This document shows, one piece after another, positions 9,910-64,000 of a DNA stretch of 64,000 nucleotides (the stretch's first letter is position 1; every line of letters starts with the position of its first letter). The notes beneath the pieces were generated by a model that saw only the letters and a list, made by a program, of their open reading frames with translations, was not told the DNA's origin and searched no databases. The position numbers and the translations under genes were made by a program. The stretch is from an uncultured Aequorivita sp. (GTDB taxonomy: Bacteria; Bacteroidota; Bacteroidia; Flavobacteriales; Flavobacteriaceae), in assembly GCA_937125455.1 (NCBI GenBank), contig CAKZLK010000047.1, forward strand, positions 1 to 64,000. The letters are read 5' to 3'.

Positions 9910-11088
9910 TTGCCAATGTACCAAAGAGTAGGGCAATCTGCTTACAAGGCAGATTTATCTGCTACGGTTCATCTTGCCAATTATTTAAATAATCCGGAGA
10001 AAAGTTTCAAAAGTATTCATGTTGCTGGCACCAACGGCAAGGGAAGCACAAGCCATATGCTTTCCTCCGTTTTTCAGGAAGCAGGTTATAAAACGGGACT
10101 TTACACTTCGCCACATTTAAAGGATTTTAGGGAACGGATAAAAATAAATGGTGAAATGATTCCCAAGAAAAACGTTTCGGAATTTGTTGAAAAACACAAG
10201 CCCTTTTTTGAAAGCAATCAACTATCATTTTTTGAAATGACCGTTGGTTTGGCGTTTGATTTTTTTAGGGAGGAAAAGGTCGATATCGCTATTGTTGAAG
10301 TTGGAATGGGAGGCAGGTTGGACAGTACAAATATTATTTGGCCAGAAGCTTCTGTGATTACAAATATTGGTTTGGACCACACGCAATTTTTGGGAGATAC
10401 ATTAGAAAAAGTCGCTAAAGAAAAAGGCGGAATTATTAAGGAGAAGATTCCTGTTATTATTGGGGAAACTCATCCCGATACAACAAAGATTTTTGAAAAA
10501 ATTTCTTTGGAAAAAAATGCGCCAATTAGTTTTGCCGAAACTTTGAATATTTCAAAATACACTTCAGATTTAAAAGGAAGTTATCAGAAAAAAAATATTA
10601 AAACAGTTTTGGCAACGTTATGTGTATTGCAGAAAAAAGGGTGGAATATTTCAGAAAAAAACATTGTAAACGGTTTATTGAATACTATAAAAAATACTGG
10701 ATTGATGGGACGCTGGCAGATTTTAAACGAAATTCCAAAAGTAATTTGCGACACAGGTCATAATAAAGAAGGGCTTCAGTTGGTTATGGAGCAGTTGTCA
10801 ATGGAAAGCTATAAAGAGCTACACATCGTTTTGGGTGTGGTTAACGATAAGGATTTAGCTTCTGCACTTCCTTTGTTTCCGAAAGATGCCACATATTATT
10901 TTTGCAAGCCTAACATCCCGCGTGGATTGGACGCTTCATTATTGCTCTCGCAAGCGAGGGGTTTTGGATTAATTGGTGAAGAATATATTTCAGTAAAAAA
11001 AGCTTATTTAGCAGCGGTTAAAGCCGCTTCAAATAGTGATTTGATATTTATTGGCGGAAGTACGTTTGTCGTGGCAGAAGTAGTGTAA
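9910..11088 (+). CDS. folC: Folylpolyglutamate / dihydrofolate synthase
   Basis: FolC adds glutamate to folates or to dihydropteroate, using ATP. The P-loop VAGTNGKGSTSHM is near residue 38 and the later Mur-ligase blocks (VEVGMGGRLDSTNI, TNIGLDHTQFLGDT, CDTGHNKEG) are present. The first conventional start is TTG at 9910. However, the frame is open upstream to the tonB stop, and the codons from 9871 encode a peptide (residues ..KYSETITWLFAQLPMYQ) that resembles the normal FolC N-terminus. Its first codon would be ATC, not ATG. I therefore give the conventional start but suspect the protein begins at 9871. A terminator follows at 11111. Confidence 0.95.
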   Translation: MPMYQRVGQSAYKADLSATVHLANYLNNPEKSFKSIHVAGTNGKGSTSHMLSSVFQEAGYKTGLYTSPHLKDFRERIKINGEMIPKKNVSEFVEKHKPFFESNQLSFFEMTVGLAFDFFREEKVDIAIVEVGMGGRLDSTNIIWPEASVITNIGLDHTQFLGDTLEKVAKEKGGIIKEKIPVIIGETHPDTTKIFEKISLEKNAPISFAETLNISKYTSDLKGSYQKKNIKTVLATLCVLQKKGWNISEKNIVNGLLNTIKNTGLMGRWQILNEIPKVICDTGHNKEGLQLVMEQLSMESYKELHIVLGVVNDKDLASALPLFPKDATYYFCKPNIPRGLDASLLLSQARGFGLIGEEYISVKKAYLAAVKAASNSDLIFIGGSTFVVAEVV

Positions 11089-11110
11089 ACCATCATAATA
11101 CGAATAAAAA

Positions 11111-11138
11111 AAATCCCAACGAAATCGTCGGGATTTTT
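11111..11138. terminator. Rho-independent terminator after folC
   Basis: The arms AATCCC(A)ACGA and TCGT(C)GGGATT form a hairpin followed by a T run on the plus strand and preceded by an A run. It also faces the end of the convergent tRNA-Val gene. Confidence 0.85.
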
Positions 11139-11144
11139 AAAAAC

Positions 11145-11222
11145 TGGTGGGCGATGAGGGGTTCGAACCCCCGACCCCCTCGGTGTAAACGAGGTGCTCT
11201 GAACCAGCTGAGCTAATCGCCC
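11145..11222 (-). tRNA. tRNA-Val (anticodon TAC)
   Basis: Read on the minus strand, the acceptor stem GGGCGAT (11222-11216) pairs with ATCGCCC, followed by discriminator A and an encoded CCA end (11147-11145). The D-arm is AGCTCAGCTGGTTCAGAGC-like, the anticodon loop is TTTACAC, giving anticodon TAC (Val, GUA codons), and the T-loop is GTTCGAA. All four stems form. Confidence 0.97.
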
Positions 11223-11311
11223 TTCTTGTTAGCGGTTGCAAATATAAGTTACTTTTTAATTTCACCAAACATTTATTTGAAATAATTATACGAATGAACA
11301 ATTTATAGCGC

Positions 11312-11341
11312 TTGCAAAAGAATTAAATAAGTTTAACTTTG
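11312..11341 (+). promoter_or_regulatory. Promoter of the YitT-family gene
   Basis: TTG at 11312-11314, a 19-nt spacer, then TAACTTTG (11334-11341), an exact TANNTTTG. The predicted transcript start is about 20 nt before the TTG start at 11371, which supports that start codon. Confidence 0.6.
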
Positions 11342-56328: not shown

Positions 56329-57120
56329 GTGGGTATTTTCCAGGCAGCTCCAACAAAATCTGCATTAAAGAAAGCGCTAAAGAAAAAGTATATTACGGTT
56401 AATGGCGTTATTGCTACTTCGGCTACGTTTATAAATGGAGGGGAACGCATTTGTCTATCCATTTTGGAAGAAGTAATTCCGAAAAGAAAACTTGTTTTTC
56501 CGCTGGAAGTATTATTTGAAGACGAGTATTTAGCTGTAATTCATAAACCAGCTGGTATTTTGGTGAGCGGGAATAGTTTTAAAACCATTGCCAATGCGCT
56601 AGATCAAAACTTAAAAAGAAGCAAGCTCCTTGATGCAACAACACCACAACCTGTTCACCGATTGGACTATGCTACCACGGGTGTATTATTGGTTGGGAAA
56701 ACCAATAGTAGCATCCGTGCATTAAATAAATTATTTGAAAACAGAGGCGTTGCCAAAACCTATTATGCGGTAACTATTGGGGAAATGGATGAGGAGGGGG
56801 AAATTACTTTAGAAGTTGACGGGAAGAAAGCACAATCAAATTATACGCTGTGTGAAACTGTGCCTTCAGAAAGATTCGGGAAGCTCAACTTGGTGAAATT
56901 AGAACCCCAAACAGGAAGAAGGCATCAGTTGCGCAAACACCTCGCTGCTATTGGAAACCCCATATTAGGTGATAAGGAATACGGAATTGAAAATCTAATT
57001 CTAAACGGGAAAGGCTTGTATTTGCACGCCTATTCCTTAAAATTCACCCATCCATTTACAAAGGAAGAAGTTTTTTTAAAAGATGAACTTCCACAACGGT
57101 TTATGAAGTTGTTTAATTAG
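56329..57120 (+). CDS. RluA-family pseudouridine synthase
   Basis: Isomerises uridine to pseudouridine in rRNA or tRNA. The catalytic aspartate is in HRLDYATTGVLLVGK, and the family blocks GVAKTYYAVTIGEMDEEGEI, PQTGRRHQLRKHLAAIGNPILGDKEYG and HAYSLKFTHPF follow. The first conventional start is GTG at 56329. The frame is open upstream to a TAA at 56245 and encodes a peptide matching the family N-terminus (KPTETHIVPKLETPIRLQEY), which would start at an ATC at 56263. I suspect the gene starts there. A decayed copy of this gene lies at 53987. Confidence 0.9.
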   Translation: MGIFQAAPTKSALKKALKKKYITVNGVIATSATFINGGERICLSILEEVIPKRKLVFPLEVLFEDEYLAVIHKPAGILVSGNSFKTIANALDQNLKRSKLLDATTPQPVHRLDYATTGVLLVGKTNSSIRALNKLFENRGVAKTYYAVTIGEMDEEGEITLEVDGKKAQSNYTLCETVPSERFGKLNLVKLEPQTGRRHQLRKHLAAIGNPILGDKEYGIENLILNGKGLYLHAYSLKFTHPFTKEEVFLKDELPQRFMKLFN

Positions 57121-57150
57121 CTGAAGGCTGAAGGCTGTAAGCTGTAAGCA
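57121..57150 (+). repeat. GGCTGTAAGC-type intergenic repeat
   Basis: The sequence GCTGAAGGCTGAAGGCTGTAAGCTGTAAGC is made of short overlapping copies. An inverted relative lies at 58467-58500. The two flank the methyltransferase and its duplicated 3' ends. Confidence 0.6.
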
Positions 57151-57202
57151 TTGGCTTTCGACCTTGGTTTATCCCCAGCCTGCCGAAGGGCTCAACCAGA
57201 CA

Positions 57203-57474
57203 TGAACAGCGTTGTCACAATAACCCCTTTCCCATCCTCCAAAACCACAGCTGATAATTGTAGGTGGTTAACATCCCCCTAGCCCCCTTCAAAGGGGGAA
57301 TGCGTCTTGGGTTTTAGTTTGTTTATAGTTGCAGAAGTGTGGTTACGATAATTCCTTTGTCATCCTCCAAAACAATAGCCGATAATTGTAGGTGGTTAAC
57401 ATCCCCCTAGCCCTACTTCGGCAAGCTCAGCACATCGCCTTCAAAGGGGGGATGCGTCTTGGGTTTTAGTTTGT
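57203..57474. repeat. Two extra copies of the methyltransferase 3' end, with spacers
   Basis: The last ~66 bp of the methyltransferase gene (57475-57545, coding SAVVLNEDKGIIVTTLLQL) recurs at 57323-57388 (copy B, ending at an in-frame stop) and as a degenerate form at 57203-57260 (copy A). Between copies lies a spacer with the palindrome-like block CATCCCCCTAGCCC..CTTCAAAGGGGG. In the second spacer this block is split by a 24-bp insert, TACTTCGGCAAGCTCAGCAC plus CATCG (57413-57436 or so), itself a member of the REP-like family. The copy-to-copy distances differ by exactly 24 bp because of the insert. Confidence 0.85.
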
Positions 57475-58149
57475 TTATAGTTGCAGAAGTGTGGTTACGA
57501 TAATTCCTTTGTCTTCATTCAAAACGACCGCCGATAATTGTGTTTTTTCTTTAACCTTAAAATTAAAGGGTGGTGCCAGTAGGTTTACACCACTATGTTT
57601 TTTCAGTCTATTTCCCTGTCCGGAAATGATTTCTTTGTTGGGTGTAAAAGCTTCTTGGGGGAGATGTTCTGTTAGAATAATGTATTTATAAGCAGCCAAC
57701 TTGTTCAAGATACTTTGTATTTCGGCATTGGATAGGTGTTGAAGCACCTGCCGTAGTATCGCACAGTTCCCAGCAGGCAAATCGGCTACTGAAATGTCCA
57801 GACACTGGAATTCTAAATTGGGTGCTTTAAATTTTTCTTTATTACGGGCTATTAGGCTTGGCACTATGTCTACTGCAACATACTTTTTGGTATGTGGTAC
57901 CAATTCTTTGCCTACATTAAAATCGCCACAACCTAAATCGCATACCGTTAGCGGATTTTCAAACGAAGTTAAAAATGTGGTTACCGCAGCTATATATGGA
58001 TTTACTATTTCGGGCTGGTGTGATCCCTCTCCTGAATAGAAATCTGCTTTGTTGCCACCCCAAAGGTTTTTTTCATAAACCTGTTCCATGACGTTCTTAG
58101 TTGGCCAAGGGGTTTTTGTTTTTTTGGATTGGTTTTCTTTTTTGTCCAC
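57475..58149 (-). CDS. SAM-dependent methyltransferase
   Basis: A 224-residue class I methyltransferase. Motif I is VCDLGCGDFNVGKELV, followed by VAVDIVPSLIARNKEKF and ILRQVLQHLSNAEIQSIL. The start is GTG at 58149; ATG at 58089 is an alternative. The substrate is unknown, and the type resembles small-molecule methyltransferases. Its 3' end is copied twice downstream and its upstream region holds the repeat array at 58298. It does not appear to be in an operon. Confidence 0.9.
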   Translation of the reverse strand: MDKKENQSKKTKTPWPTKNVMEQVYEKNLWGGNKADFYSGEGSHQPEIVNPYIAAVTTFLTSFENPLTVCDLGCGDFNVGKELVPHTKKYVAVDIVPSLIARNKEKFKAPNLEFQCLDISVADLPAGNCAILRQVLQHLSNAEIQSILNKLAAYKYIILTEHLPQEAFTPNKEIISGQGNRLKKHSGVNLLAPPFNFKVKEKTQLSAVVLNEDKGIIVTTLLQL

Positions 58150-58168
58150 AAATAAAAGTATCGATATT

Positions 58169-58176
58169 CAAATGTA
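58169..58176 (-). promoter_or_regulatory. -7 box for the methyltransferase
   Basis: Plus-strand CAAATGTA reads TACATTTG on the minus strand, an exact TANNTTTG, 20 nt before the GTG start at 58149. No -33 box is clear. Confidence 0.45.
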
Positions 58177-58297
58177 CTATTAAAAATGCTCTGTTGCTTG
58201 GGTTCTATTATTGGACGAAATAGAAGTGTAAAATAACCTTTTATTGATAAAAGAAGCGCTTTTTATGTAAGGGGTGAAAAAAGGTGTTTTGGGACAG

Positions 58298-58375
58298 TTT
58301 GTTCGGCTTTTGTTCGGTCTTTGTTCGGTGTTTACTGGGAAAAAGGGTGGTTTGTCCGAACAACGTCCGAACAAA
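58298..58375. repeat. TTTGTTCGG array with 11-bp phasing
   Basis: Three direct copies of TTTGTTCGG lie at 58298-58306, 58309-58317 and 58320-58328, each 11 bp apart. Two inverted copies, CCGAACAA(C) at 58356-58363 and CCGAACAAA at 58367-58375, are also 11 bp apart. The arms face each other across about 28 bp. The spacing equals one turn of the DNA helix, so a protein could bind the same face at each copy. Confidence 0.85.
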
Positions 58376-58466
58376 GGTGGGAAAAGGGCGGGAGAAAACA
58401 AGTATAAAAGGATGGGGGTCTTGGTTTTAAAGTGTTTGTAAATTAGCTTAGTTATAATTCACAATA

Positions 58467-58500
58467 TAGCCTAAAGCCTAAAGCTTACAGCCTACAGCTA
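58467..58500 (-). repeat. Inverted relative of the 57121 repeat
   Basis: AGCCTAAAGCCTAAAGCTTACAGCCTACAGC is the reverse complement of a GGCTGTAAGC-type element like that at 57121-57150. The pair brackets about 1.3 kb including the methyltransferase. Confidence 0.55.
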
Positions 58501-58540
58501 TTAAAAAAAACCCTATATTTGAAACTCTCCCCGATTAAAT

Positions 58541-58577
58541 AAACCCCCTTTACGGTTTTCCGTACTTGGTGGGGTTT
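58541..58577. promoter_or_regulatory. Nested inverted repeat over the defence-operon promoter
   Basis: AAACCCC (58541-58547) pairs with GGGGTTT (58571-58577), and inside it TACGG-TTTT-CCGTA (58551-58564) forms a second stem. The outer stem overlaps the -33 region of the promoter that follows. It could be an operator or a leader hairpin. Confidence 0.6.
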
Positions 58578-58594
58578 GACTTTTATTACATTTG
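58566..58594 (+). promoter_or_regulatory. Promoter of the ParB-ATPase-methylase operon
   Basis: TTG (58566-58568), an 18-nt spacer, then TACATTTG (58587-58594), an exact TANNTTTG, followed by an approximately 80-nt leader to the ATG at 58679. Confidence 0.55.
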
Positions 58595-58678
58595 GAAATA
58601 TAAAGAGCTAATTGCCGATACCTATAATATATGCTATATAATATGTTGATACAATTATATTATTAAAAAAAGAAAATT

Positions 58679-60241
58679 ATGTATATAGATTATTCTACTT
58701 GGGAAACATTTGAATATAGCTTAAAAACATTACAGCTCGATTTGAATAATCCAAGGATTAAATATCGAGGTGATAGTTTAAATCAAACTCAAATATTAAA
58801 ATTTCTCATCAACAATGAAAAGGTTTATGAATTAGCAAAAAAAATTTCTGAAGAAGGTTATTTTGTTGGAGAAGAGCCTATTATTTGTATTGAAAATAAT
58901 AAAAAAGTTGTTCTTGAAGGGAACAGACGAACTGCAGCATTAAAGTTATTACAAGACCCAAAAAAATATCTATCTACAGCGAAAGCAAACACATTATTAC
59001 AAAACATCCTAAAAAATGACTTTCCTGTAGATAAAAAATTAAGATGCTATATAGCGCCAAATCGACTTTTAGCTAATCCTATTATTTACGAAAGACACAA
59101 TGGAGCAACTTTACAAAGATGGAAAACAGGAAATCAATATGCTTTTGTGGCAGAAATGTATTATGAAGATGGCTTAGTTGTCGAAGATATTTGTGATGTT
59201 TTAAATGAAAGTAGAGCTAAGATTCTCAAACCATTGAAGGCCTATAATTTATTTTATGAGGGTAAAGAAATTCTTGAAAGGCAAGATAATATAGTAATTG
59301 ACATTGCTGATTTTGACTTTACCAATTTAGAAAGGTTTTATACCTATGAACCCGCAAGAAAATTCCTTGGAATTGAATTTGATAATGAAAATGGTGAACT
59401 CCTAATAAATATTGCAAAAGAGGAATTTGAAAAAAGGCTTCTAGAAGTGTTTAAGATTCTAATTGATGCAGAAAGATTTTCACGAGATTTCAACAAAGAG
59501 GATGATAAAAAGAATTTCGTTCAAAAATTGAATGATAATCCTAGTTTCGATTTTGCGAAAACGAAAGAAGAGACAACGGAAAGCAAGACTTCTAAAAAGA
59601 AAACTGATTTAGAAACAGAAAAGAAAAAAGTTACTAGAAGAAGAAAAAGGTCTAAGAAGAAAGCTTATGATAATCGAATTATTTTGGCCGAAAAAGAAGT
59701 GATTTTTGATAATGACAAGTTGGATGATATTTTTTTCGAACTAAAACATTTGCCCATAGATAGAATTTACTCATTCGCTGTATTATTAAGAACATATTTG
59801 GAGCAGTCTCTTTACTTCTATTTGAAAAAGAAAAATCTTATAGATGATTTGAATTTAAAGACAAATTTAGAAAATGAAAAAAATAGCCTGAAAAAGGTCG
59901 AAGGTCTAATTTCTTACATTAAAGGAAAGCATTTTATAAGTGAAGAAATTGATTCCACCCAGATTATGACACTATTACGATTTAATAGCAATAAAGATTA
60001 TTCAAGTGCTTCCTTAAAAATAATGCTGGACTACGTGAAAAACTATGAATTGGATAATCACTTAGATACCAGCCAATTAAAAAATTTAAAACATTATATT
60101 GATCGAATTAAAGACGGTTTAGATTTAGCGGTTCATAATCTAGAAACAATTGTGGATTTAGAACATAATAAAAGGGCCTGGAAACATTTAGAACCCTTAT
60201 TTGATATATTAAGTAATAATATAGACGATGATAATAAATAA
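58679..60241 (+). CDS. ParB-like protein (defence-operon gene 1)
   Basis: A 520-residue protein with an N-terminal ParB/Srx-like domain (about 15-145): LDLNNPRIKYR near 20-30 and VVLEGNRRTAALKLL at 77-91 correspond to the box regions of ParB-like NTP-binding folds. The next ~150 residues contain HxxGATLQRW and are helical; a lysine/arginine-rich stretch (about 305-345, KKKVTRRRKRSKKK) could bind DNA. The C-terminal part is helical. It begins a tightly packed operon; its end overlaps the ATPase by 14 bases. Codons are strongly A/T biased compared with housekeeping genes. The exact family and activity are not known. Confidence 0.8.
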   Translation: MYIDYSTWETFEYSLKTLQLDLNNPRIKYRGDSLNQTQILKFLINNEKVYELAKKISEEGYFVGEEPIICIENNKKVVLEGNRRTAALKLLQDPKKYLSTAKANTLLQNILKNDFPVDKKLRCYIAPNRLLANPIIYERHNGATLQRWKTGNQYAFVAEMYYEDGLVVEDICDVLNESRAKILKPLKAYNLFYEGKEILERQDNIVIDIADFDFTNLERFYTYEPARKFLGIEFDNENGELLINIAKEEFEKRLLEVFKILIDAERFSRDFNKEDDKKNFVQKLNDNPSFDFAKTKEETTESKTSKKKTDLETEKKKVTRRRKRSKKKAYDNRIILAEKEVIFDNDKLDDIFFELKHLPIDRIYSFAVLLRTYLEQSLYFYLKKKNLIDDLNLKTNLENEKNSLKKVEGLISYIKGKHFISEEIDSTQIMTLLRFNSNKDYSSASLKIMLDYVKNYELDNHLDTSQLKNLKHYIDRIKDGLDLAVHNLETIVDLEHNKRAWKHLEPLFDILSNNIDDDNK

Positions 60242-61796
60242 GATTAAAATTAAAAAATTCAGGGGATTCCAAGATGTTGAATTTGAATTAGGAAAGTTCA
60301 TTACAGTAATTTCGGGACAAAATGGAACTCAAAAGACTACAATTTTAGGTATGTTGAGTCAATCATTTGCGATTACCGATGATGACAATCCAATGAAAGA
60401 TGAAAGGCCATTGTCAGGAGGGAATTACAAATCATCCTTTGCAGATAAATTTAGATTATCCGAAGAATTTGATAATGCTGGTGAACATGAATGGACTTTA
60501 TTTTTCGTCGATAATAGTATTCCTCCATATACAATTGAAAGTATTCATAGAGAAAAATCAAAGGGTACAATTAGATTTTGGAAAAAAGGTGATAAATCAA
60601 AAGGGTCTGGATTTATTCAAATACCTGTTATTTACCTAAGTCTTAAGCGTTTATTGCCTATCGCAGAAGATGATAAACTTTCAATTGATACAAAAAAAAT
60701 TCTATCAGATGCTGATTTTGATTTTTACAAAAAATGGTTTAATAAAATCCTAATATTAACAAGGCAGAAAGATCAAGTTAAAAGTTCAAATTATTTAAGT
60801 AGTACAAATAAACAAACACTTGGTGCAAATACCGATCATTATGATTGGAAATCAAATTCTGCTGGTCAAGATAATTTAAGTAAAATATTATTAGCAATAT
60901 TATCTTTTAAAAATTTGAAAGAAAAGTATAAAGACAAATATCCTGGTGGCATACTTGCAATTGATGAAATTGATGCTAGTTTTTATCCTGGATCACAAAA
61001 AATCTTATTTGATGCCTTAATTCAATTCGCTTCTAAATTTGAAATTCAAATTATTTTTACAACACATTCTCTTACAATACTTGAACAAGCTAATGAACTA
61101 CAAAATGATTTAAAAAGAGAAAACCAAATTAAACTAATGTTCTTAACTAAAAGCGATGGTTTAATTAAAATAAAAAATAATACCAGTTACGATTATATAA
61201 AAAACCATTTAAATAGAACTTTAACCGGTAAAACAATTAAAAAAAGAATAGACCTTTACACAGAAGATAGAGAAGGAGCAATTTTTGTAAAATCAATAAT
61301 AGGACAAAAAACCAAATATTTTAATTTTATTGATGTGAGTTTAGGTTGTGGCAATTTGATACAACTCGCTTCCTCTAAAGTGCCTTCATTTACATATCCC
61401 AATTCTCTGATTATTTTGGATGGTGATGTTAAAATCAACAGACAACAATTTAAAAAAATAAAAAAAATAAAAAATGTTTTACTATTGCCATCAGATAAGT
61501 CTCCTGAACAAATAATTTCAGATTTTTTATACAATCTATCAGACGAAGACCCTTTATGGACTTCCATTGATGAAACTTTTGATCATCAGCTTTGCTTTGC
61601 GCAATACACCAATGAAGAAATACAACGAGACAGAGAAAAAGCAAAAACATGGTTTAATAACCACTTACCTATTTGGGGTAGAAATGCATCAAAAGTTTTT
61701 AATCCATGGAAAAAAGAAAATGTTGAATTAGTTGAAGAATTTAATACTAATTTTGATAAATTAATTATTGAATTGAAAAATAAAACAGGCATTTAA
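60228..61796 (+). CDS. AAA/ABC-type ATPase with Toprim-like motifs (OLD-like; gene 2)
   Basis: A 522-residue SMC/OLD-type ATPase. Walker A is GQNGTQKTT (30-38), with Gln in place of the usual Gly before the lysine; a signature-like SAGQDN is at 211-216; Walker B is ILAIDEIDASF (D246, E247); the switch histidine is H280 in IFTTHS. From about 340 a Toprim-like fold follows: E346 in YTEDREG, a glycine-rich turn at 373-375, and D398/D400 in IILDGDV, matching the acidic triad of OLD-family nucleases. It may cut nucleic acid once ATP-gated. It overlaps the ParB-like gene by 14 bases and precedes the methylase by two. Confidence 0.85.
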   Translation: MIINKIKIKKFRGFQDVEFELGKFITVISGQNGTQKTTILGMLSQSFAITDDDNPMKDERPLSGGNYKSSFADKFRLSEEFDNAGEHEWTLFFVDNSIPPYTIESIHREKSKGTIRFWKKGDKSKGSGFIQIPVIYLSLKRLLPIAEDDKLSIDTKKILSDADFDFYKKWFNKILILTRQKDQVKSSNYLSSTNKQTLGANTDHYDWKSNSAGQDNLSKILLAILSFKNLKEKYKDKYPGGILAIDEIDASFYPGSQKILFDALIQFASKFEIQIIFTTHSLTILEQANELQNDLKRENQIKLMFLTKSDGLIKIKNNTSYDYIKNHLNRTLTGKTIKKRIDLYTEDREGAIFVKSIIGQKTKYFNFIDVSLGCGNLIQLASSKVPSFTYPNSLIILDGDVKINRQQFKKIKKIKNVLLLPSDKSPEQIISDFLYNLSDEDPLWTSIDETFDHQLCFAQYTNEEIQRDREKAKTWFNNHLPIWGRNASKVFNPWKKENVELVEEFNTNFDKLIIELKNKTGI

Positions 61797-61798
61797 AA

Positions 61799-62701
61799 AT
61801 GATCTATTCACCTTTAAGATATCCGGGAGGAAAAAATAAATTATCTGCCTTCATCGCAAAAATTTGCGTTGACAACAAAATAAATGGTCATTATGTTGAG
61901 CCTTATTCGGGAGGTGCCTCGGTAGCTTTGTTTCTTCTATTAGAAGGTTTTGTGAGTTGGATTACAATAAATGATAAGGATAGGTCAATATATGCTTTTT
62001 GGCATTCAGTTTTGAATAATACTGAGGCTCTATGTGAGATGATTGAAAATGTTGAACTAACTGTAGAAGAATGGAATAGACAGCGAGAAGTTCAGCATAA
62101 TAAAAAATCGGCAGATTTACTAACTTTAGGTTTTTCAACGTTTTATATGAATAGAACAAATCGGTCTGGGATTATAACTGCGGGCCCCATGGGTGGAATG
62201 GACCAATCTGGAAATTATTTGATTGACTGTAGGTTTAATAAAACAGAGCTGATTTATAGGATTAAAAGAATTGCAAAGGAGAAAAAAAATATAAGGCTTT
62301 ATAAAAAAGACGCAATTAAATTAATTGATAAAATTCAAAATGAATCAGAAAATAACAATGTTGTTTTCTATTTTGACCCCCCATATTATTTAAAGGCAAG
62401 TAGCCTGTATATGAATCATTATGAAGATAAAAATCACAAAATGGTAAGTGATAAAATAAAATCAATTCAAAATATTCGTTGGATTGTTTCCTATGATAAT
62501 GTACCAGAAATAAGAGAGTTGTATGCTGATTGTCCTAAAAAGGAATTTGAGTTCAAGCATACAGCGTATGAAATTAGAAAAGGAAAAGAGATTTTATTTT
62601 TTAGTGATAGCTTGAAACAACCAAGTATTGAAAATTGGAATCCTTTAGGATTTAAATTAAAAAGAAAAAAAAATATTGCTAACATTATATATCGTACATA
62701 G
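61799..62701 (+). CDS. Dam-type DNA adenine-N6 methyltransferase (gene 3)
   Basis: A 300-residue D12-class (Dam-like) adenine methylase. The SAM motif is LRYPGGK (6-12), EPYSGGASVALF follows, and the catalytic DPPY is at 193-196 (FDPPYY). The family normally methylates GATC or a related site, but specificity cannot be read from the sequence. It lies two bases after the ATPase, so it is the last gene of the operon. It may mark self DNA for the ATPase, or act as a modifier in a restriction-like system. Confidence 0.93.
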   Translation: MIYSPLRYPGGKNKLSAFIAKICVDNKINGHYVEPYSGGASVALFLLLEGFVSWITINDKDRSIYAFWHSVLNNTEALCEMIENVELTVEEWNRQREVQHNKKSADLLTLGFSTFYMNRTNRSGIITAGPMGGMDQSGNYLIDCRFNKTELIYRIKRIAKEKKNIRLYKKDAIKLIDKIQNESENNNVVFYFDPPYYLKASSLYMNHYEDKNHKMVSDKIKSIQNIRWIVSYDNVPEIRELYADCPKKEFEFKHTAYEIRKGKEILFFSDSLKQPSIENWNPLGFKLKRKKNIANIIYRT

Positions 62702-63002
62702 AGTTGGGCTTTGACTTGTATATATTGAAATAACATTCAGTTTAATTTTTTTAATCCCCCGCTAGCGCGAGCGTCCCGCTACTATCCAATCCCAAAAACC
62801 CACCTCTTCAATAGCTTATAGTTACATCTGTTTTAATTCATCAAAGCAACCCTTAACGCTTTCCACTTCCCGTCTTCGTCATGCTGAGCTTGTCGAAGCA
62901 CACGTCTCACTTCTCACGCTTCACACCCCTAAAAATATCGGCTTCAGGCTATGATTTTTTTTGAGAATTTTTATTTTAGCAATTCAAACTAACCATTTTA
63001 TA
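62702..63002. other. Intergenic region with dispersed repeats
   Basis: No gene is seen in these 301 bp. It contains a CCCGCTAGCGCGAGCGTCCCG-type block (about 62757-62780), whose core is partly self-complementary, and a REP-like segment GTCATGCTGAGCTTGTCGAA (about 62878-62900). Both look like intergenic repeat debris. A clear TANNTTTG box for the following gene was not found; TATTTTAG at about 62971-62978 is a weak candidate. Confidence 0.5.
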
Positions 63003-64000
63003 ATGAAATACACCCTTAAAATCTCCCTGATTTATGCATTTATCATGTTCTTCGCGCAACCTGTTTTTAGTCAGGACTACCTTAAACTTGCAAAGCTTTA
63101 TTATAAAGACCCTAAACCAAGTCTATCGTTATATTTAATAGGAGTTGTTCGTGATAACAATGCTGAACAATTGGTGATAGACTATCAAAATCTGGAATCA
63201 GAGAATACACAAGATATTGACGCTACCGTTCAAAAAATAGAAGATCTGAAGCAGAGTTTTGAAGATAACTATACAAATCCGGAAGATGATAGTGATTGTC
63301 AGAAAATGCTGTACTATCAGAAACAATTAGAAAATCTAAATGTCAGAATTACCATCTTAGCATCGAATGTGGAAATAGCCAGGAATGCCTATGATAATTG
63401 CCCTTCCAATTGTGATAGCAAAGTAACAAATTTTAACCAACAGCTTGCTTATTATAATGAAGCTGTGGCAGAGTGGGAAGGCCTGAAGGAAAATTATGAT
63501 GCCTATAGACCCGCTTGTGAGCAGGCAGATAAAATTTATGTCGATGCTGCCAAATATTATGATGCAAAACAAGAAGCTATTTTACAACCCCATAAGGCAA
63601 GAGTGACTGCCAGAAATGCAAGGATCAAGGCATATAAGAAGCAATTGAATGAAATAATAGAAAATACACCCATTCCCCACGAAGAATTTTATGACAATGG
63701 TGTTCTAAAGAAAGAAGGCTATTTAATACGAAAAACGAAAAAATATGATGGCTCCATAAGGTCATATTATCCTAACGGCAAATTAGAATGGAAAGGAACA
63801 ATAGTAGATGGCGAATTTGATGGAATGTATACCAAATATTACGAAACGGGTGTAAAAAAAGCAGAAGCAGAATACAAAGACGGGGTCGTGATAGGGTCCT
63901 GGAAAAATTATAATGAAGAGGGGGTAGACGAGCAAGCCGAAATGAATAAGAGAATATTAGACCACTGGGATGAAGAATTTGCAGCTGATGATAAATACTA
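63003..64000 (+). CDS. Partial secreted coiled-coil protein with YwqK/MORN repeats
   Basis: I translated this directly; 332 codons are visible and the frame is open at the right edge, where it ends in a partial TA codon. It has a signal peptide (cleaved after PVFSQ), a long charged, coiled-coil-like middle (about 60-215) containing several cysteines, and two or three MORN/YwqK-type repeats near the end (FYDNGVLKKEGYL, YYPNGKLEWKG, YYETGVKKAEAEYKDG). YwqK-type repeats are best known from antitoxin and surface proteins. The function here is unknown. Confidence 0.7.
   Translation, partial: MKYTLKISLIYAFIMFFAQPVFSQDYLKLAKLYYKDPKPSLSLYLIGVVRDNNAEQLVIDYQNLESENTQDIDATVQKIEDLKQSFEDNYTNPEDDSDCQKMLYYQKQLENLNVRITILASNVEIARNAYDNCPSNCDSKVTNFNQQLAYYNEAVAEWEGLKENYDAYRPACEQADKIYVDAAKYYDAKQEAILQPHKARVTARNARIKAYKKQLNEIIENTPIPHEEFYDNGVLKKEGYLIRKTKKYDGSIRSYYPNGKLEWKGTIVDGEFDGMYTKYYETGVKKAEAEYKDGVVIGSWKNYNEEGVDEQAEMNKRILDHWDEEFAADDKY

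Follow-up and report, generated by a model that had tools for sequence, protein, structure and literature searches.

We conclude that the three adjoining genes at positions 58679 to 62701 of contig CAKZLK010000047.1, from an uncultured Aequorivita sp., appear on sequence evidence to form a real, conserved, and horizontally moving defense-type operon, best described as a three-gene variant of the PD-λ-5 system that carries a predicted OLD-type nuclease. The analysis covered positions 1 to 64,000 of the contig (here called the window), which belongs to a genome of 3.73 Mb in 63 contigs. All three genes lie on the forward strand. The first, A (58679-60241), encodes a ParB-like protein of 520 amino acids with a ParB/Srx-type N-terminal domain and a C-terminal HEPN-like helical bundle (about residues 342-520); the second, T (60228-61796), encodes a 522-amino-acid OLD-type ABC-ATPase with a C-terminal Toprim domain (E346, D398, and D400); and the third, B (61799-62701), encodes a D12-class N6-adenine DNA methyltransferase of 300 amino acids. 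A and T overlap by 14 bases (60228-60241) and T and B are 2 bases apart (61797-61798), which is the packing described in a first-pass annotation of the window. That annotation regarded the trio as distinct from any named system, a view that holds only in part, since a match to a named system was among the outcomes that it said would refute it. A and B match the PADLOC models PD-Lambda-5_A and PD-Lambda-5_B, so the operon is not wholly new, but T matches no PD-Lambda-5 model, and because it stands between A and B we rank the operon as a variant rather than as plain PD-λ-5. The outer genes thus seem to be known already, and the middle gene to be the addition.

Both components of PD-λ-5, which we take to be a two-gene A-B system, are matched in the window, and the difference lies in the third gene, set between them and overlapping A. 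PD-λ-5 is an anti-phage prophage system found by functional selection, with tested phage protection, and its discoverers read it as a compacted restriction-modification (RM) plus abortive infection (Abi) system (Vassallo et al. 2022, PMC9519451). B matches its PD-λ-5 model at 1.7e-116 over residues 2-280 and Pfam MethyltransfD12 at 5.5e-17, and carries PGGK at residue 9 and DPPY at residue 193, all of which bears out the earlier call of a Dam-type methylase downstream of T. The DPPY motif together with a PG[GS]K-type motif occurs in 80/80 B open reading frames (ORFs) longer than 250 amino acids, a few genes being counted twice through overlapping loci.

The match of A to PD-Lambda-5_A is 8.5e-42 over residues 14-458, and this one model is matched at 1e-10 by 28 of the 36 rows of alignment A2, which holds the window's A and 35 more, drawn from the 36 A ORFs in loci L023-L102 that reach 350 amino acids. 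The structure model of A has a ParB-type N-terminal domain with a GxRR-type nucleotide motif (GNRR, residues 81-84), followed by the HEPN-like bundle, which is without the canonical Rx4-6H motif. Two residues of this tail, R371 (35/36 rows) and H486 (34/36), are conserved and lie on different helices in the model. No suitably placed R stands ahead of H486 in the window's A, and an Rx4-6H motif occurs in only 1 of the 34 rows that have the H (L048). In the trio's own genome a search with Pfam ParB_N matched two other proteins and missed A, so this model appears to be blind to A. DUF262 (GmrSD_N) gave 0 Pfam matches for the window's A and matched 3 of the 36 rows, the best at 0.018.

Two other loci hold A-like genes of different build. 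Locus L033 has a second, shorter A-like gene (10172-11341; 389 amino acids) that overlaps the end of B and is without the C-terminal HEPN-like part in the alignment. In Escherichia phage Wphi (L015, 96-3266), an A-like ParB protein, gp98, adjoins gp96 and an opposite-strand gene annotated as a cytosine methylase; ParB-like proteins of this kind may pair with other methylases.

The motifs attributed to T in the first pass (Walker A, signature, Walker B, switch histidine, and an E-G-DxD pattern) are all present, as K36; S211/G213/D215; D246 with E247; H280; and E346, D398, and D400. They are conserved across alignment A3 (the window's T and 60 more, drawn from the 79 T ORFs that reach 400 amino acids), in which K36, S211/G213/D215, D246, H280, E346, D347, D398, and D400 are identical in 61/61 sequences and E247 in 60/61. 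T matches Pfam AAA_15 at 1.2e-18. Its structure model (mean predicted local distance difference test score, 92) has strands at 341-345 and 393-397 that stop just before E346 and D398/D400, and the best Foldseek match is the OLD nuclease 6p74 (527 columns, TM score of 0.32, root mean square deviation of 16.4), followed by GajA. The placement of the acidic residues at predicted strand ends and the top Foldseek match agree with a Toprim domain.

With PADLOC, T matches 83 models at E <= 1, the best being ATPase-Toprim_I-B (1.2e-22), followed by AriA (8e-19), GajA (1.5e-15), and NsnB (1.1e-14); no PD-Lambda-5 model is among the 21 matched at 1e-10. The ATPase-Toprim model presumably represents the effector of a retron, and these scores would fit a type I-B retron or another named OLD system (Gabija, PARIS, or Menshen) with T as its ATPase-Toprim effector. 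We consider this extremely unlikely, as no reverse transcriptase, GajB-type helicase, or separate AriB was seen by eye in the ORFs around the trio, the Pfam scan of 8 neighboring proteins contained no such partner, positions 57000-64000 gave no Rfam match, and the solved-structure matches of T are broad (OLD, Rad50, PtuA, and AriA). Retron, Gabija, and PARIS identities were accordingly rejected for want of a partner helicase, a reverse transcriptase with its noncoding RNA, or a separate Toprim gene around the trio. T was also ruled out as a single-gene OLD protein of class 1, since it lies in an operon with A and B.

The three genes recur together, as a unit, in many unrelated bacteria. A search of a one-genome-per-species collection with an alignment of T relatives (A1) found 297 stretches fitting the pattern, 133 of which encode a relative. 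Genes within 3.5 kb of T were called with profiles for A, T, and B, and among the best 80 of these 133 loci, 36 hold A, T, and B, 29 hold T and B, and 15 hold T alone. Some of the last group end at contig edges, and two (L049 and L065) fall in it owing to the 3.5-kb cut, their B lying 3.6-3.8 kb off. The order of the genes varies (T-B, 23 loci; A-B-T, 15; T-A-B, 13; B-T, 6; A-T-B, 4; and four further orders, convergent, divergent, or doubled, at one locus each), and neighboring genes often overlap or stand a few bases apart. All three genes are also found in Vibrio phage ValB1MD-2, where A is in two ORFs, and in G159, a genome of the same family, with T on the opposite strand. The first-pass annotation had suggested counting how often the three families co-occur, and they prove to be linked far more often than the rarity of B would give: at 1e-15, B was found in 2/59 background genomes, namely the trio's own and a relative (G013) in which it adjoins an A with no T. 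T was found in 1/59 genomes of the relatives search (its own, and none of the other 58) and in at least 4/395 genomes of the order, its own included, with at most three candidates scored per genome.

Pairs of these genes also recur separately. The 75 T loci in viral contigs comprise 62 with T and B, 4 with A, B, and T, 6 with T alone (T reaching the sequence end in each), and 3 with no ORF detected; they were found with alignment A1, viral-contig searches that used T or A as a lone query sequence having returned nothing. In Escherichia coli, a T-B pair occurs in 85/5426 complete genomes (at least 80% query coverage in each genome, a search that captures close copies of one pair only). When the A-B pair of a Kosakonia plasmid was used as a DNA query, methylase genes only were matched, in 3/5426 E. 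coli genomes, and the two that were opened are T-B loci. From the other side, a search of 395 genomes of the phylum with an alignment of A found A in at least 25, its own genome included (at most four candidates scored per genome). The resulting survey of 26 A regions (24 fetched, the window, and G159, some ending at a contig edge) found B in 19, three of these being weak matches (1e-39 to 1e-44), T in 3, and neither in 7. The usual form in this survey is A-B without T (16/26), that in viral contigs is T-B without A, and A-T-B is dominant in the close clade of T (35/50 rows). We conclude that A, T, and B recur together as a unit and that B is also found paired with A alone or with T alone.

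Some T loci have other neighbors. L049 (7575-12131) and L065 (7596-12258) carry T, a HerA-like gene (DUF87, scanned in L049), a gene of 470-491 amino acids of no recognized family, and B, with no A; the HerA-like gene and the 470- to 491-amino-acid gene are possibly another third module. At L057 (1965-8477) and L067 (1950-8480), T-B stands directly behind a protein of 1.3 thousand amino acids, which in L057 contains a ResIII helicase domain and an Eco57I methylase domain.

It might be supposed that the window holds plain PD-λ-5 into which an unrelated OLD gene has been inserted, with T as a passenger or as a class 1 OLD protein that acts independently. T is present in only 3 of the 26 A regions, T-alone loci exist, and A and T do not co-diverge, all of which would fit. 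However, A and B accompany T at 36 of the 80 loci, in several orders and often with overlaps or gaps of a few bases; B is kept without A at 29/80 genome loci and 62/75 viral loci; and B and T do co-diverge. We therefore consider a passenger role for T quite unlikely.

The co-divergence was measured at 36 trio loci, with three loci excluded: L030, where A is a fragment, and L004 and L054, where A and T, respectively, are spread over two ORFs. Pairwise identities are correlated between A and B (0.56) and between B and T (0.36), with 0/500 permutations as high in each case, but not between A and T (0.01; 216/500 as high). The pattern persists with near-copies removed (25 loci: A-B, 0.43; B-T, 0.44; A-T, -0.04) and within the close T clade (22 loci: A-B, 0.53; B-T, 0.23, 9/300; A-T, 0.02); with 13 loci only, A-B drops to 0.18 (46/300) and B-T is 0.56 (3/300). 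A could be saturated, though saturation would touch A-B equally. On a T tree of 85 of the 86 chosen rows (L054, with T shorter than 400 amino acids, was left out; short search with SH-aLRT as the only branch support), the presence of A requires 13 changes, against a mean of 27.9 in shuffles (0/500 as low), and at least 9 of these changes are forced by well-supported branches. The window falls in a group with four further A-T-B loci, of which two belong to Pseudomonadota. We infer that A has been exchanged between T lineages and that B is what both partners track.

The first-pass annotation read the operon as restriction-type immunity. The defense-type character of a ParB-like protein combined with an OLD-like Toprim ATPase and a methylase stands, but the HEPN-like domain of A had been missed, and this domain shifts the likely mechanism from plain restriction to restriction with an abortive arm. 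A classical RM system made of T and B alone, with T as the nuclease for unmethylated DNA, B as the safeguard of the host, and A confined to controlling expression or loading T, would fit the T-B pairs without A in prophages, in an integrative and conjugative element (ICE), and in 85/5426 E. coli genomes, as well as the ParB-type nucleotide-binding domain of A. We nevertheless regard it as doubtful. A-B pairs without T are frequent (16/26 A regions) and match a published defense system (PMC9519451), so A is probably more than a regulator of T; A also has a second conserved domain (R371 and H486).

We prefer a reading in which T, as a DNA nuclease, and A, as an abortive arm, are effectors that share one methylase and can each be swapped without the other, and we give it about an even chance of being correct. 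It draws on gene content, motifs, predicted folds, recurrent linkage, the separate pairs, co-divergence, and the variable site described below. B, judging from its family and motifs, would methylate adenines of the host chromosome wherever its own target site occurs. T would act as an OLD-type nuclease whose ABC dimer binds DNA and ATP and whose Toprim domain cuts DNA without the mark, or invader DNA structures. A would combine a ParB-type DNA sensor under nucleotide regulation with a HEPN-like effector; it might read the mark of B, or B itself, and would damage RNA and stop the cell once it senses DNA that is unmarked or has been tampered with. The co-divergence suggests that B serves both arms and that A and T work in parallel rather than in one fixed complex, in which case the trio would be PD-λ-5 (A and B) merged with a separate two-gene module (T and B). 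By analogy, such a mechanism may resemble ParB-type sensors joined to nucleases (GmrSD and SspE) and RM systems backed by an abortive arm, a likeness drawn partly from PMC10952713, PMC12839542, and PMC10799925.

More tentatively, B may license two killers at once, each exchangeable without the other, with A-B and T-B as halves of one modular methylation-guarded family, T as a fifth, methylase-tied OLD class, and the window as the complete two-armed form, in which an invader that escapes the nuclease arm meets the abortive arm; we see this as possible, though somewhat short of an even chance. If T works with B, a methylase-linked class would join the OLD nucleases. The natural combinations A-B, T-B, and A-T-B offer a way to ask which protein reads the mark and which stops infection. 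For annotation, the PADLOC models cover A and B as PD-λ-5, and T receives only the ATPase-Toprim model of another system.

Comparison with described systems places the trio near several of them. The OLD nucleases are divided into classes 1 to 4 (single gene, Gabija, retron, and PARIS) in a review (PMC10568477). T resembles this family in having an ABC ATPase and a Toprim domain in one protein, with 6p74 as its best Foldseek match, but differs in sharing its operon with a Dam-type methylase, whether A is present or not; neither methylase nor methyltransferase appears anywhere in the text of the review. ParB-HEPN fusions, and operons of HEPN genes with a ParB nuclease and a DNA methylase, are listed for Saro_3948 and MAE_28990 in the part of Anantharaman et al. 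2013 (PMC3710099) available; that part mentions no Toprim ATPase, and the window's A is without the Rx4-6H motif. Menshen, according to PMC10952713, combines a DUF262 protein with a predicted OLD nuclease and thus likewise joins a ParB/Srx-type protein, whose ParB fold is common to the window's A, to an OLD nuclease; however, the window's A has no DUF262 match in Pfam, and the window has a methylase. Closest to one half of the trio is a prophage pair annotated as an AAA family ATPase or "Lp2 protein 4" with a DNA adenine methylase (the B of one phage being unannotated), in which the same T and B families adjoin, but with no A and often with a longer T (about 570-595 amino acids). No system name for this T-B pair was met in the literature searched, and no paper among the full texts searched treats PD-λ-5 and ParB together. 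A description of the A-T-B trio was not found in the literature searched either; most subscription papers and the ABC-ATPase conflict survey cited in PMC12839542, the likeliest place for a T-B or A-T-B neighborhood, lay outside that scope, so a prior description is possible.

The operon was probably acquired horizontally, in keeping with the transfer suggested in the first pass. The G/C counts given there (12 per 60 bases in the trio, against 25 per 60 bases elsewhere in the window) are exact, and the A+T richness is real: the trio has a G+C content of 28.6%, whereas equally long stretches of the window average 37.6%, and when such stretches are taken at 100-base steps, the only one to reach so low a value overlaps the trio. 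At third codon positions, A, T, and B have a G+C content of 17-24%, and three upstream neighbor genes one of 32-34%. Upstream of the trio lies a methyltransferase gene (57475-58149) with a homologue in 22/28 genomes of the genus, its own included. In two of the seven relatives fetched (G027 and G004), this gene and a cytochrome-c'-like gene flank 10-12 kb of other cargo. Ten ORFs of this variable site were scanned with PADLOC and 3 matched: G027 has Drt2 (4.5e-133) and RTasYodC (5.2e-88) at the trio's site (L164, 7174-9819), and G004 (L165, 6911-11610) has a "cll" match (3.9e-16), which stands with a RES-domain protein that has a HEPN/RES N-terminal domain. The trio's site is thus variable in the genus and, by its gene content, appears to be a defense-type hotspot. 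None of the other 27 genomes in the genus has a match to the neighbor gene on the downstream side (63003-64775), and for this reason no clean empty site could be drawn.

Relatives of the trio genes lie near integrases in prophages, in an ICE, and in viral contigs, and phage P2 Old is a known OLD protein of phage-phage interference (PMC10568477). The operon might then serve a mobile element in counter-restriction or maintenance, with B shielding the element and T and A acting in replication or superinfection exclusion. This is very improbable in our view. The copy in the window occupies a chromosomal site that varies, inspection by eye of the ORFs around it revealed no integrase, a relative has defense-type genes at the same site, and the system matched by A and B has protected against phages in tests (PMC9519451).

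The first-pass annotation also placed the trio among repeats and behind a single promoter. Repeats do exist, but they lie upstream and do not flank the operon, and no long direct repeats or att-like repeats bracketing the trio were found within 58100-63100. Direct repeats of 104 and 78 bases (93% and 86% identical) occupy 57208-57541 and run into the methyltransferase gene at its 3' end. At 58298-58375, TTTGTTCGG occurs in three copies 11 bp apart and in two inverted copies, one exact and one with a change. The window has 4 exact copies, a number reached in 3/100 shuffles. The double unit has its sole site in the trio's own genome here (at most 1 mismatch), is absent from L023 and L024, and lies near the same site in G010 (L167); the array is possibly an operator. 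The single promoter was not borne out, as a sigma-70 scan gave 35 sites, against 25.3 (standard deviation, 5.0) in shuffles, and no site that marks out the operon start.

Between this array and A, a 139-bp intergenic element on the forward strand (58465-58603) has TAnnTTTG boxes around a TTACGGTTTTCCGTAA-type palindrome; the Rfam scan described above, which included it, gave no match there. It has matches at E <= 1e-6 in 22/28 genomes of the genus, its own included, often in same-strand series about 1-5 kb apart, and it stands before unrelated accessory genes across the genus. Among 36 copies examined, a subset of the matches listed, 29 have the TAnnTTTG box and 21 the palindrome core, and in 30 a same-strand ORF of at least 70 amino acids starts within 300 bp downstream (a count made with no random control). 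The element may be a shared promoter or a cassette junction.

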